Source: an uncultured Bacilli bacterium | Lineage (GTDB): Bacteria; Bacillota_I; Bacilli_A; RF39; UBA660 | Reading direction: 5' to 3' | Length of the DNA stretch: 33,467 bases | Assembly (NCBI GenBank): GCA_944350305.1 | Contig: CALVOO010000005.1 | Span: 1 to 33,467, forward strand | In this document: positions 2,001 to 28,982 of the stretch, one piece after another | How the letters are laid out: each line of letters starts with the position of its first letter | Numbering within the stretch: position 1 is the first letter of the stretch | Made by a program: the position numbers and the translations under genes | The notes under the pieces: generated by a model | Told to the model about the DNA's origin: nothing | Databases searched by the model: none | The model's input: only the letters and a program-made list of their open reading frames with translations

Positions 2001-2030
2001 ACACAAAAAGAAGTGAATATCACTTCTTTA
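2001..2030 (-). terminator. Rho-independent terminator of the peptide cassette
   Basis: A 10-base-pair inverted repeat (2007-2016 with 2020-2029, loop ATA) is followed on the minus strand by a TTTTTGTGT tract. It begins at the stop codon of the second peptide and closes the transporter-peptide operon. Confidence 0.85.
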
Positions 2031-2183
2031 TAAAGAACAAATAGTTCCAGTTTTAGCTCTCCTAATCGCAGTTCCAACTGCTTTACCAAATTCAAATAAA
2101 GCTGTAAAACCTCTCACTAACGCATTAACTAAAGTTGCGCTTATAGCACCTCCAACAACATTAGTTAACTCTTCATTATTCAA
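2028..2183 (-). CDS. Double-glycine leader peptide B (candidate class IIb bacteriocin subunit)
   Basis: A 51-residue peptide read directly from the sequence. The leader MNNEELTNVVGG ends in the GG processing site recognised by C39 peptidases, and the predicted mature part is 39 residues (AISATLVNAL...KTGTICSL). It is hydrophobic and helix-prone at first, carries a GxxxG motif (GKAVG), then a basic patch (IRRAK) and a single cysteine three residues from the end. The TTG start at 2183 is chosen because AAGGAGG lies exactly 8 bases upstream, the same geometry as for peptide A; a GTG one codon earlier is an alternative. The gene follows peptide A with its ribosome site overlapping the peptide A stop. 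GxxxG motifs in paired small peptides are typical of two-peptide bacteriocins; a signalling role cannot be excluded. Confidence 0.83.
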   Translation of the reverse strand: MNNEELTNVVGGAISATLVNALVRGFTALFEFGKAVGTAIRRAKTGTICSL

Positions 2184-2199
2184 CACATCTTCCTCCTTC

Positions 2200-2331
2200 C
2201 TAATTACATTTTAATGGTCTCATATAACCATCAATAACTCCAACAACAAAAGTAATTATGCCAGCAATTAAACCAGCAATACCCCATCCGATTCCTCCGC
2301 CGCTAACGGAATATAGTTCATCATTAGACAA
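2200..2331 (-). CDS. Double-glycine leader peptide A (candidate class IIb bacteriocin subunit)
   Basis: A 43-residue peptide with leader MSNDELYSVSGG and a 31-residue predicted mature part beginning GIGWGIAGLIAG. The mature part is glycine-rich and very hydrophobic with three GxxxG motifs (GIGWG, GLIAG, GVIDG), then ends RPLKCN with one cysteine. GxxxG motifs mediate helix pairing in two-peptide bacteriocins. I prefer the TTG at 2331: AAGGAGG ends 8 bases before it, while the ATG at 2337 (giving MKLSNDEL) is only 2 bases from that site. The gene overlaps the 3' end of the transporter gene by 8 bases, so its ribosome site lies inside the transporter coding sequence and translation is probably coupled. 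Its natural partners are the downstream peptide B and the transporter upstream. Confidence 0.85.
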   Translation of the reverse strand: MSNDELYSVSGGGIGWGIAGLIAGIITFVVGVIDGYMRPLKCN

Positions 2332-4357
2332 TTTCATCACCTCCTTTCATAAAATATCTATATTTAAATAAACTTATAATTTCTTTTTTATGCGAAACAT
2401 AAATAATAGTTTTATCACTAAAATAATTTTTAATGTTTTTTATAATATTTATTTCATCTTCTGAATTAACTTCGCTTAAGCCTTCATCAATAATCAAATA
2501 ATTAAAGTTTTTTAAAAGTGCCCGAGCTAAAATAATTTTCTGGCGTTCCCCGCCACTTAAATTAATTCCATCTTCATAAATAACAAAATCATCTCTAAAT
2601 TTTCTACTGTTTCTGATTTTATCGACTAAAGTAATTTTTAAAATATTTTCATAGTCTTCTCTATTTACTTTTCTATAAAGTTTAATATTATTTTCTAACG
2701 TTTCATTAAAAAGCTTTTCTTCTTGAGAAACTATGGATATGGAATTCATAAGTACATTGTTCTCTAAGTCTTTTATATTAATATCATTAACAAAAATATT
2801 GCCAGAATAATTGGTATATTGACCAGCAATTATTTTAAGAATCGAACTTTTACCACTGCCACTTTCGCCACATATTAAAAACAATGAACCTACTGGGATA
2901 GAAAAGTTAATTTTATATGATTTATTAATGAGATTTAATTTAACATTTCTAAAGCAAATACTTCCATTTATTTTATCTGGATTTTGTTCTTCTTCGCGAA
3001 TCTTAAACAATTCATTTACTCTTTTGACAGAAACTTTTACCTCTTCTATTAGACTAAATTTACCAAAAATGACTTTAATAGGATCGATAATACTTAGTGC
3101 GAGACTATAAGCAAAAAATAAGTCACTTAATTTTAAGATATTTTTATTTACCAAAATAATTGCCAAAGTAACTATTAGTATAAGAAAAAAATCACTTAAG
3201 TTATTTTTTACAAATTCAAAATTATTGAGATTATTAAGGGTATTTTTAACTTTAAATAGATAAGCATAATATTTACTTAAAAGTTTTCCGATAAAAATAT
3301 CTTCGACTTGCAAATTCTTAATACTCACATAATTAGAGATACTTTCATTAGCAAAACTTTCATATAAACTGTAAATATTTTTAACTTCAAATATTTTTCT
3401 CTTGAAGTATTTATAATAAATAAAAGAAAAAATAAAATAAATAAAAATAAATAAAATAGTAATAAAAAATAACATCGTATTAATAAAAGCTAACAGAAGT
3501 ATAATACAAATTAATAATAAAATATTCACAAATATGTTTAAACTAATATCAACCAATTTATCTTTAATGTTTTCTAAATCTCTTATTCGATCAAGAATAT
3601 CACCGGTGTTTTTATTTTTAAAATACATTATTGGAACCTTAAAAATATAGTAAACAATATCTTTTAATAAAATAACGCCAATAGTATTTTGAATAGAAAT
3701 AATATGTTTTTCTAATAAATAATTAAAAAGATTTTTAAATAAAATAATAATTATAAAAATCATACTTAAAAATTTTAAATTATTTAACTCTAAAAGAAAT
3801 TTTAGTAATATATTTGTCAATAAGGTAAAGAAAATAACAAATAAAGATAAAACTATAATTTTAGACAATAATATCTTATATTTACTTAGAAGTTTAAAAA
3901 TTTTAAGTAAAATAATTGTGTCAGCTTTTATTTTGGGAATATCTCCTACAGGCATAATTTCTAAAACAGTAGACAAATAAATTTTTTTAAACTCATTAAA
4001 CCTAATCCGTTTAATGCCTACACTAGGATCCATGACAATTAAAATTTTTCTTTTTTTATCAATTTTATATATAACCAAAAAATGATACAAATTATTACTA
4101 ATGACATGAGCAATTAATGGATTAGTTAATTCATAATTAATCAGATCTTCAAAAGATAATTTAATGCCACGTCCATCAAAACCAATATTCTTAACACCAT
4201 TCAAAATATCAAAAGCATTAGTTCCATATCTAGAAGCATTTAAAATAACATTTAACTCCTCATAAGATATATTACCACCATAATATCTAATTAAAGATAA
4301 AACACATGCGGTAGCGCAACTATAAGAACTGTTTTGTTTAACAACATATCTTTTCAT
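2324..4357 (-). CDS. Peptidase-containing ABC transporter (bacteriocin processing and export)
   Basis: A 677-residue half-transporter of the PCAT type, which cuts double-glycine leaders and exports the mature peptide. The N-terminal C39 peptidase shows Q8, C14 (nucleophile, in SYSCATAC), H92 (YHFLVI) and D110 (DPSVG). A six-helix membrane domain spans roughly residues 150-430. The C-terminal ATPase has Walker A GESGSGKS, signature LSGGERQ, Walker B LIIDEG and the switch histidine in VSHKK, so every catalytic element is intact. Length is normal for the family. The start ATG has AAAGGA 7 bases upstream. The two leader peptides directly downstream are the evident substrates. No accessory HlyD-like protein and no immunity gene is visible beside it. 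The aspartate that usually precedes the catalytic cysteine is serine here. Confidence 0.95.
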   Translation of the reverse strand: MKRYVVKQNSSYSCATACVLSLIRYYGGNISYEELNVILNASRYGTNAFDILNGVKNIGFDGRGIKLSFEDLINYELTNPLIAHVISNNLYHFLVIYKIDKKRKILIVMDPSVGIKRIRFNEFKKIYLSTVLEIMPVGDIPKIKADTIILLKIFKLLSKYKILLSKIIVLSLFVIFFTLLTNILLKFLLELNNLKFLSMIFIIIILFKNLFNYLLEKHIISIQNTIGVILLKDIVYYIFKVPIMYFKNKNTGDILDRIRDLENIKDKLVDISLNIFVNILLLICIILLLAFINTMLFFITILFIFIYFIFSFIYYKYFKRKIFEVKNIYSLYESFANESISNYVSIKNLQVEDIFIGKLLSKYYAYLFKVKNTLNNLNNFEFVKNNLSDFFLILIVTLAIILVNKNILKLSDLFFAYSLALSIIDPIKVIFGKFSLIEEVKVSVKRVNELFKIREEEQNPDKINGSICFRNVKLNLINKSYKINFSIPVGSLFLICGESGSGKSSILKIIAGQYTNYSGNIFVNDINIKDLENNVLMNSISIVSQEEKLFNETLENNIKLYRKVNREDYENILKITLVDKIRNSRKFRDDFVIYEDGINLSGGERQKIILARALLKNFNYLIIDEGLSEVNSEDEINIIKNIKNYFSDKTIIYVSHKKEIISLFKYRYFMKGGDEIV

Positions 4358-26654: not shown

Positions 26655-27428
26655 TTATTTTATTAATCTTTTCATTGTTTTTATAGCATTTTTTTCAAGT
26701 CTAGATACTTGTGCTTGACTAATACCTATTTCTTCAGCAATTTCCATTTGAGTTTTTCCAACGATAAATCTGTTTATTAATATATCTCTTTCACGTTCTT
26801 TAATTTTCATAAGTGCTTTTCTCATACTTATAAGGTCATCTAATTCTTTATTTTCTTTTTTATCTTCAATTTGATCAAGTAAATAAATTGTGTCTCCTCC
26901 ATCATTATATATTGGTTCAAAAATACTCATCGGCTCCTTTAAACATAAAATTGCATTTGCAACTTCATATTCGCTAACTTCAAAGTGTTTTGCAATTTCA
27001 CTAGTAGTTGGTTCCGAATTATTATTATATGTATAATCCTCTTTAAATTTTAATATTTTATATGCTAAATCTTTAATGCTTCTACTAATTCTAATTGGGT
27101 TATTATCTCTAATGTATCTTTTAATTTCTCCCTCAATCATTAATACTGCATAAGTGCTAAATCTCACATTATGCGAAAGATCAAAATTGTCGATTGCTTT
27201 TATTAATCCAATGCATCCTATCTGGAATAGATCATCCATATTATCGGTTTTATTATGATATTTTTTTAATATTGACAAAACTAATTTTAAATTTCCATTA
27301 ACTAATGTGTCTTTAGCAGTTTTATCGCCTTTTTTAAGCTTTCTAAATAATTCAATCATTTCTTTATGCTTTAATACCGTTAAATTACTAGTCTTTATAC
27401 CTGTTATTTCTACCTTGTTTTTTGCCAT
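26655..27428 (-). CDS. sigG: RNA polymerase sporulation sigma factor SigG
   Basis: A 257-residue sigma factor close to Bacillus SigG, which runs late forespore transcription. The N-terminus NKVEITGIKTSNLTVLK, region 2 (DDLFQIGCIGLIKAIDNFDLSH), the SIFEPIYNDGGD block and the region 4 helix-turn-helix (TQMEIAEEIGISQAQVSRLEK) are characteristic. AGGTGA lies 6 bases before the ATG. It follows sigE after a terminator and has its own candidate SigF-type promoter, so it would be switched on in the forespore. It is the best single sign that this organism makes endospores. Confidence 0.96.
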   Translation of the reverse strand: MAKNKVEITGIKTSNLTVLKHKEMIELFRKLKKGDKTAKDTLVNGNLKLVLSILKKYHNKTDNMDDLFQIGCIGLIKAIDNFDLSHNVRFSTYAVLMIEGEIKRYIRDNNPIRISRSIKDLAYKILKFKEDYTYNNNSEPTTSEIAKHFEVSEYEVANAILCLKEPMSIFEPIYNDGGDTIYLLDQIEDKKENKELDDLISMRKALMKIKERERDILINRFIVGKTQMEIAEEIGISQAQVSRLEKNAIKTMKRLIK

Positions 27429-27446
27429 CTTATATCACCTATTATA

Positions 27447-27475
27447 TATTTGGCGATATTCGTACTTTTTTATAC
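27447..27475 (-). promoter_or_regulatory. Candidate SigF-dependent promoter of sigG
   Basis: On the minus strand GTATA is followed after 15 bases by CGCCAAATA. The SigF pattern is GYATA, about 15 bases, GGNNANA; the -35 matches fully and the -10 partly. It lies directly after the sigE terminator and 18 bases before sigG, where Bacillus has its SigF promoter. Confidence 0.5.
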
Positions 27476-27501
27476 AAAAAAAGTATAAAATAATTATACT
27501 T
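27475..27501 (-). terminator. Terminator of spoIIGA-sigE
   Basis: Minus-strand stem AAGTATAA/TTATACTT with a five-base loop and seven T residues, overlapping the sigE stop codon. Confidence 0.8.
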
Positions 27502-28174
27502 TCATTAAATTTTGTAATTTTTTAATTGTTTTTTTCTCTATTCTTGATATATAAGACTGACTTATTCCTAACATGTCTGCTACCTCTTTTTGCGTAAATT
27601 CTTCACTGCCCATTAACCCGTATCGCATTTTAATAATTTCTTTATCTCTTTTATTTAATTTTTCAATTTCTTTTAATAAAATTAGTTTATCTATTTTTTC
27701 TTCGTAAGATTTAGGAATAAGTTCAGGATCTGTTCCAAAAACATCTTCTAAATGCAATTCATTTCCTTCTCCGTCAAAATTAATTGAATCTTCAAAGCTT
27801 ATCTCAGTATTTCTTTTTTTATTTTTTCTTAAAAACATTAATATCTCATTTTCTATACATCTTGAAGCATATGTAGCAAGCTTTATATTTTTGTCAGGCT
27901 TATAAGTTTTAATTCCTTTTATTAGTCCAATTGATCCTATGCTTACTAAATCTTCTAATGTCTCGTTAGTATTGTCATATTTTTTTGCTAAAAATACTAC
28001 AAGCCTTAAGTTATGTTCAATTAGCTTATTTCTTGCATTTAAATCTCCATTATTACTTTTTATCACTAATTCTAATTCCGTATCTTTATCTAAAGGTGGT
28101 GGCAATATATCTGTACTGCCTACATAATATATCTCTTTTTTAAATAATTTTATTAATAAATCTAGTATCTTCAT
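27494..28174 (-). CDS. sigE: RNA polymerase sporulation sigma factor pro-SigE
   Basis: A 226-residue sigma factor made as an inactive precursor. The basic, hydrophobic pro-region (about residues 1-17) precedes EIYYVGSTDILPPPL, matching the cleavage zone of Bacillus pro-SigE. Region 2 (EDLVSIGSIGLIKGI) and region 4 (TQKEVADMLGISQSYISRIEKK) are intact. SigE directs early mother-cell transcription after cleavage by SpoIIGA, whose gene lies immediately upstream and overlaps as ATGA, with GGAGG inside the spoIIGA end. Confidence 0.97.
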   Translation of the reverse strand: MKILDLLIKLFKKEIYYVGSTDILPPPLDKDTELELVIKSNNGDLNARNKLIEHNLRLVVFLAKKYDNTNETLEDLVSIGSIGLIKGIKTYKPDKNIKLATYASRCIENEILMFLRKNKKRNTEISFEDSINFDGEGNELHLEDVFGTDPELIPKSYEEKIDKLILLKEIEKLNKRDKEIIKMRYGLMGSEEFTQKEVADMLGISQSYISRIEKKTIKKLQNLMKV

Positions 28175-28965
28175 ATTTTTTCCTCCATTAATATATTTAA
28201 TAAACAGTCTATCCCATCTATTTTTATTTTATTTTCACTTATACCAATAACCACATTGTTTTTTAAACCAATTCCATCAATATATACATATTTTGGCACT
28301 ATACATTTAATAATTCCGTCATAATTTAATGTCTTGTACGGTACTAAAATATAATTGTTTGCTCTCATGTAATCACTGATTTCTTTATTATGAGCTATAA
28401 TAACGTATTTACCACCATAAGGTTCAGTCAATGTATTTCCACTATCAACGTAACCATTTAACTCAACAATTTTATTGTTATTTAAATAAACATTTACTTT
28501 TTTTCTATTTGTATAAAATAATCTCAATTCTTTAATTTGCTTAGTATAAATATATAATATAACTGGACTAAATATTCCAACAACTAAAAAATTAAGTTTA
28601 AAATTATTATTGATAAAAGTAATTCCAACTTTTTCGTAACCTATTTGTATATTTAAAAAATATAAAAAACCGCCCAATATTATGCTAGTAGTATAAAAAT
28701 ATAAAAGATTATTAAAAAAATATTTTATATCTTTATATCCAAAAGCAATTAATATTAATATACTACTTAATATTAACTTATATAAAAATAATAGAAAGTT
28801 ATTCATATTAATAAATAAGATTAAAATTGATAAACTACCAATAAAAGTAGAGAATAATATTCTTTTCATTTTAGCATTTCTTCTAAGTATTATAGAAATT
28901 GTTACAAGTATTAAAAAGTCTATTATAAAATTTAAAAGTAAAATTAAATCAATATATACTTTCAT
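28171..28965 (-). CDS. spoIIGA: Sporulation sigma-E processing peptidase SpoIIGA
   Basis: A 264-residue membrane protease. Five hydrophobic helices fill roughly residues 1-145, followed by a soluble aspartic-protease-like domain with D174 in YVDSGNTLTEP, the catalytic motif. It cleaves pro-SigE in the mother cell on a signal from the forespore. I start at the ATG at 28965, preceded by GGTG; a TTG four codons earlier is less likely. It forms a two-gene operon with sigE, as in other spore formers. Confidence 0.94.
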   Translation of the reverse strand: MKVYIDLILLLNFIIDFLILVTISIILRRNAKMKRILFSTFIGSLSILILFINMNNFLLFLYKLILSSILILIAFGYKDIKYFFNNLLYFYTTSIILGGFLYFLNIQIGYEKVGITFINNNFKLNFLVVGIFSPVILYIYTKQIKELRLFYTNRKKVNVYLNNNKIVELNGYVDSGNTLTEPYGGKYVIIAHNKEISDYMRANNYILVPYKTLNYDGIIKCIVPKYVYIDGIGLKNNVVIGISENKIKIDGIDCLLNILMEEKI

Positions 28966-28982
28966 ATTGGTCACCAATTAAA

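Follow-up and report, generated by a model that had tools for sequence, protein, structure and literature searches.

The window, by which we mean the whole 33,467-nt stretch of DNA analysed here, carries a compact cassette on its minus strand, running from a gene for a C39 peptidase / ABC exporter (PCAT, 4357-2324) through the genes for two short peptides, A (2337-2200) and B (2186-2028), to an intrinsic terminator (2029-2007). An initial annotation of this DNA had described a complete C39-peptidase ABC transporter followed by two short GG-leader peptides, with mature parts of 31 and 39 residues, three GxxxG motifs in A and one in B; every one of these elements was recovered where the annotation had placed it. 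The features are as follows.

2324..4357, minus strand: PCAT, C39 peptidase / ABC exporter of 677 aa (Pfam PF03412, PF00664 and PF00005, all over cut-off)
2200..2337, minus strand: peptide A precursor, ATG start, with an in-frame TTG further in as a possible start; family-wide signature F-x-x-G-x-x-D-G-[YF]-x-R-P-x-x-C
2203..2295, minus strand: mature part of peptide A, GIGWGIAGLIAGIITFVVGVIDGYMRPLKCN, 31 aa with three GxxxG motifs; conserved GxxxG (GVIDG) at 2227-2241, invariant Cys at 2206-2208
2192..2196, minus strand: Shine-Dalgarno sequence GGAGG of peptide B, from sequence context
2028..2186, minus strand: peptide B precursor, GTG start, with a TTG one codon further in as a possible start; HMM matches in 144 of 150 family genera
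2031..2147, minus strand: mature part of peptide B, AISATLVNALVRGFTALFEFGKAVGTAIRRAKTGTICSL, 39 aa, cationic, with one GxxxG motif (GKAVG) at 2073-2087; invariant Cys at 2037-2039
2007..2029, minus strand: intrinsic terminator directly 3' of peptide B, with a 10-pair stem and a T tail

The peptide A gene overlaps the 3' end of the exporter gene by 14 bases, and strong Shine-Dalgarno sequences lie 5' of both A and B. Both leaders are of the ...ELxxVxGG type, as annotated; their annotated length of 12 residues holds approximately only for the in-frame TTG codons, which have the better Shine-Dalgarno spacing, and becomes 14 (A) and 13 (B) when counted from ATG2337 and GTG2186. Three terminator-like sites were found, against 0.2 in shuffled sequences, and in the window's species the transcript probably ends after B. 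PCAT contains all three expected domains (C39, ABC-membrane and ABC-ATPase), its catalytic residues C14, H92 and D110 are conserved in relatives together with the Walker/LSGG residues, and it is the sole full-length copy in the genome. Judging from its family, PCAT would cleave both precursors at GG and export A and B. Single-sequence models predict helices in both peptides, with a helix over precursor residues 4-45 of B (AlphaFold2 single-sequence model, pLDDT 84). The cassette is adjoined in the window by a gene for an FAD-dependent oxidoreductase with a C-terminal Rieske domain (530-1957), which occupies this place in G000, G002, G004 and G005, four genomes of the six in the genus; in the other two, G001 and G003, rpsO/pnp is found there.

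Relatives were gathered by an exporter search, after which the flanks were read. This revealed the same ordered gene set, PCAT-[accessory]-A-B-[T], in 90 distinct loci, where T denotes a third, B-like protein; the shared order and co-inheritance identify PCAT, A and B as one cassette. The genes rpsU (S21) and yqeY lie downstream of the cassette in many genera, and its position upstream of rpsU-yqeY in most genera argues for vertical inheritance. Two loci show insertions between A and B with both peptides intact, namely a methyltransferase-like ORF in L131 (genome G021) and about 1.2 kb in L133 (genome G306).

The peptide B profile matched 356 of 386 sampled family genomes, distributed over 144 of the 150 genera, and 242 of the 252 near-complete ones; an order sample, in which every listed genome belonged to this one family, gave matches in 269 of 288. 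Profile searches detected no full-length B in about 258 class genomes outside the family, and none outside the family in the phylum sample. What did match outside the family were weak, partial alignments starting in the leader (E at least 1.8e-5 in the class sample and at least 3e-7 in the phylum sample), those in other class families, mostly family f4, extending from the leader into the beginning of the mature peptide. No copy of B was found by tblastn in plasmids or, using a typed consensus-like B in place of the exact gene, in phages, and hence nothing in these collections hints that B came from a mobile element.

Ten of the 252 near-complete genomes gave no B match. Sporadic loss was considered as an explanation, but this number is close to the expectation from incomplete assemblies alone at a MAG completeness near 93%, and we infer that the gaps in distribution are no more than assembly gaps would produce. 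In 27 genomes the B match was weak or missing altogether. The exporter is absent too from 18 of these, and another five have an exporter match that is incomplete or lies at, or not far from, the end of a contig. That leaves four, all of a single genus, g8, which has kept the exporter and in which recognisable diverged peptides are present in two of the four genomes. The relatives, whose class, Bacilli, is assigned by inference from the outgroups, have genomes of 0.4-1.9 Mb, and the cassette is retained even at 0.5-0.6 Mb. The cassette is thus a family-wide core possession and probably an order-wide one, the order being RF39 by inference. The annotated compact export cassette therefore stands as such, although not as an isolated one, since across relatives it behaves as a vertically inherited core trait.

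Codon comparison within the window's genus showed both mature peptides to be under strong purifying selection. Mature A and B have pN values of 0.01-0.08 at pS values mostly of 0.2-0.6, whereas at similar pS the exporter reaches a pN of 0.18-0.26 in most comparisons and the leaders mostly 0.1-0.27, two close pairs being lower throughout. This contrast places the constraint on the secreted parts of the cassette. Across relatives, a GxxxG-type motif is present in 84/86 A and 88/89 B sequences. The distance from the last GxxxG to the cysteine is seven residues in 83/86 A peptides, and that from GxxxG to the cysteine 12 residues in 87/89 B peptides; PxxC occurs in all 86 A relatives and a cysteine within the last six residues in all 89 B relatives. 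To our knowledge, a fixed Cys pair is not a hallmark of class IIb, and at the sequence level it suggests that A and B may form a covalent heterodimer. The A and B profiles resemble each other only around the leader, and their distances correlate after removal of exporter distance (r 0.34, by a partial Mantel test, which can overstate coupling). The proposal that A and B act together is supported by this linked evolution and by their co-inheritance.

The pair had initially been read as a class IIb bacteriocin, and comparison with curated families bears this out in part. Peptide A scored 24.4 bits against TIGR03949 ('class IIb bacteriocin, lactobin A/cerein 7B family'), over the cut-off of 21.5 bits, with a match that covers only the leader and the N-terminal mature part, and 25 of 25 aligned A sequences matched the same model at E up to 0.1. 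Peptide B, at 13.1 bits, fell below this cut-off, as it did below all curated cut-offs. Against the lactococcin G/enterocin 1071 family (NF038034/NF038035, cut-off 37 bits), both A (25.2 bits) and B (13.2 bits) remained below threshold. Profile searches of the PDB with both peptides returned no meaningful relative, the hits being plant methyltransferases for B and the leader-like CtA peptide for both. The second-best NCBIfam match of the exporter, at 225 bits where the cut-off is 500, was to NF045998, the Mbov_0121-family peptidase-domain ABC transporters of mollicutes, which are small-genome relatives in the class.

In anatomy the system resembles the class IIb families of TIGR03949 and NF038034/NF038035, with adjacent GG-leader genes, mature peptides of 30-40 aa, GxxxG in each and a dedicated C39 ABC exporter. 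It differs from them as an order-wide core trait with a single invariant C-terminal cysteine per peptide, and no immunity gene could be recognised in the window. The distribution of class II bacteriocins tends to be patchy, and they need a linked immunity gene; order-wide conservation in place of diversification is unusual in competition toxins. We consider the class IIb label reasonable in the sense of 'works like'. A plain competition bacteriocin is an uncertain reading, given the vertical core status, mature parts more constrained than the exporter, the invariant C-terminal cysteine of each peptide and the failure to recognise any gene for immunity within the window's genus.

About half of the loci encode two further proteins. 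The accessory protein (about 120-170 aa, with one N-terminal TM) often lies between the exporter and A; its size, single N-terminal TM and position allow the guess that it may be HlyD/LcnD-like. T genes were identified in 49 loci, including 41 of 82 exporter-holding ones, directly downstream of the second peptide. T proteins are leaderless and about 43-70 aa long (most 48-60), mostly with an N-terminus rich in lysine; they have a single hydrophobic stretch, and their C-terminus takes the form G-x-x-x-G-T-x-[IA]-R...C. Pfam scans of the accessory protein and T returned no consistent family. Both proteins are found across most parts of the exporter tree and for this reason look ancestral.

In profile comparison by hhalign, T aligned with B along the C-terminal half of the mature peptide (E 2.4e-7, score 34.9); column-shuffled T scored at most 13.2 and reversed T 17, and removal of the leader changed little. 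The corresponding comparison of T with A gave no match. With exporter distance removed, T distances correlated with those of B at r 0.26 versus r 0.16 for A (partial Mantel, with the same caveat). Local mimicry, in which each T would be closest to the B of its own locus, found no support (30% to own B versus 29% to other Bs, p 0.11). The sequence kinship points to T as a putative B-derived decoy that would bind A, and so as a candidate immunity protein; the lack of a preference for the local B counts against this. We know of no described immunity protein that mimics a partner peptide. Small immunity proteins with one TM do exist, among them CbnZ of carnobacteriocin XY (42 aa), BrcI (53 aa) and AbpIM (55 aa) (PMC6957408). 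T is like them in being small with one hydrophobic segment, and unlike them in its kinship to the mature C-terminal half of B, which suggests protection by mimicry. No T gene was detected in the window or in the genomes of its genus. The clade of this genus lacks T, the accessory protein and the rpsU-yqeY position, with A and B nearly unchanged, and this retention of the peptides without T is what is hardest to reconcile with a killing role.

We favour, with some reserve, the interpretation that A and B are a secreted, membrane-active, class IIb-like pair that has become a core vertical trait of an order, probably RF39, and acts on neighbouring cells. PCAT would cut both leaders after GG and then export A and B. 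The hydrophobic helix of A and the cationic amphipathic helix of B would dock through their GxxxG faces, perhaps with their C-terminal cysteines joined in a disulfide that locks them together, and the pair would insert into the membranes of neighbouring bacteria, which would thereby be permeabilised. Where present, T would be an inactive B-like decoy that binds A and shields the producer; in the window's genus protection would have to come from elsewhere, for example from absence of the target.

A core physiological role other than killing, in which the peptides use a class IIb-like secretion route but serve in signalling, as a factor of the cell surface or of the producer's own membrane, or in adhesion or colonisation, would fit a near-universal, vertically inherited cassette whose mature parts are under purifying selection and which is kept in genomes of 0.5-0.6 Mb, as well as the retention of the pair in several lineages that have no recognisable immunity gene. 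We nevertheless consider it rather unlikely: a cationic amphipathic B, a TM-like A and paired GxxxG motifs suit membrane insertion, T as a mimic of B resembles a possible immunity protein, and the neighbouring ORFs of the window, read by eye, include no obvious sensor kinase or receptor. The same potential immunity protein lends itself to an ordinary competition bacteriocin of class IIb, fixed early in the order, with T as its immunity protein and, in the window's genus, with immunity encoded at an unlinked place. The anatomy, the TIGR03949 match of A, the presence of T in about half of the loci and the precedent of small one-TM immunity proteins (PMC6957408) all agree with such a system; conservation of both mature sequences throughout the order does not, nor does the fact that whole clades have lost the putative gene for immunity and kept the peptides, and we hold this account to be improbable. 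That the peptides are chance ORFs or decayed remnants, as their shortness and the non-standard start codons in the genus might suggest, has a negligible likelihood, being already refuted by conservation in 90 distinct loci under strong purifying selection, with Shine-Dalgarno sequences and a terminator in place.

If the lineage is RF39, a peptide pair as universal as a marker gene, present in the smallest genomes too, is probably important for the life of these bacteria among their neighbours. Under the favoured interpretation of a membrane-active pair, the cassette would exemplify the fixation of a bacteriocin-like system as a core trait, with T suggesting immunity through mimicry of one partner peptide; the main interest lies in this order-wide core status and in the B-like third protein. 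A search of the literature covered here found no publication tying a two-peptide system to RF39, and two short synthetic peptides would offer a directly testable entry to the ecology of that order, should the assignment hold. RF39 is an uncultured order, prevalent in the gut, with highly reduced genomes and loss of fatty-acid synthesis (PMC6784871). FabF is missing in 57 of 58 family genomes and present in 20 of 38 class outgroups, and the agreement with the published loss is the ground for assigning the lineage to RF39. The exporter, used as query against the named genome collection, matched nothing but unrelated ABC proteins. A bolder version of the favoured interpretation, which we advance as speculation with little probability, is that the pair is an order-defining, disulfide-linked pore former that would constitutively open neighbours for lipids and other nutrients beyond the synthetic abilities of these auxotrophs, which would protect themselves with a decoy copied from B and anchored in the membrane. 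Genus g8 (L135-L138) is the sole FabF-positive genus found in the family, and no other has A and B as diverged or decayed as its own; with a single genus behind it, any connection of FabF loss to the peptides is anecdotal.

Elsewhere in the window (26655-28977), SpoIIGA, SigE-like and SigG-like genes lie near ftsA/ftsZ in a 0.8 Mb genome, called from best matches that fall under the NCBI equivalog cut-offs. Outside the window this genome also has a Spo0A that scores over its cut-off, as do most genomes of the family, suggesting that sporulation genes have been kept in this reduced lineage.

Peptide A also serves as a prophage integration site in two genera, where elements with large serine recombinases interrupt the gene (L130:15149-15403 with L129:90-302 in genome G169; L128:17092-18898 in genome G020). 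Lysogens of this kind would be A-negative unless the element excises. The break falls directly after ...[VI]IDG, and in G169 the tail of A (YIRPLACR) is intact beyond a prophage of roughly 35 kb.
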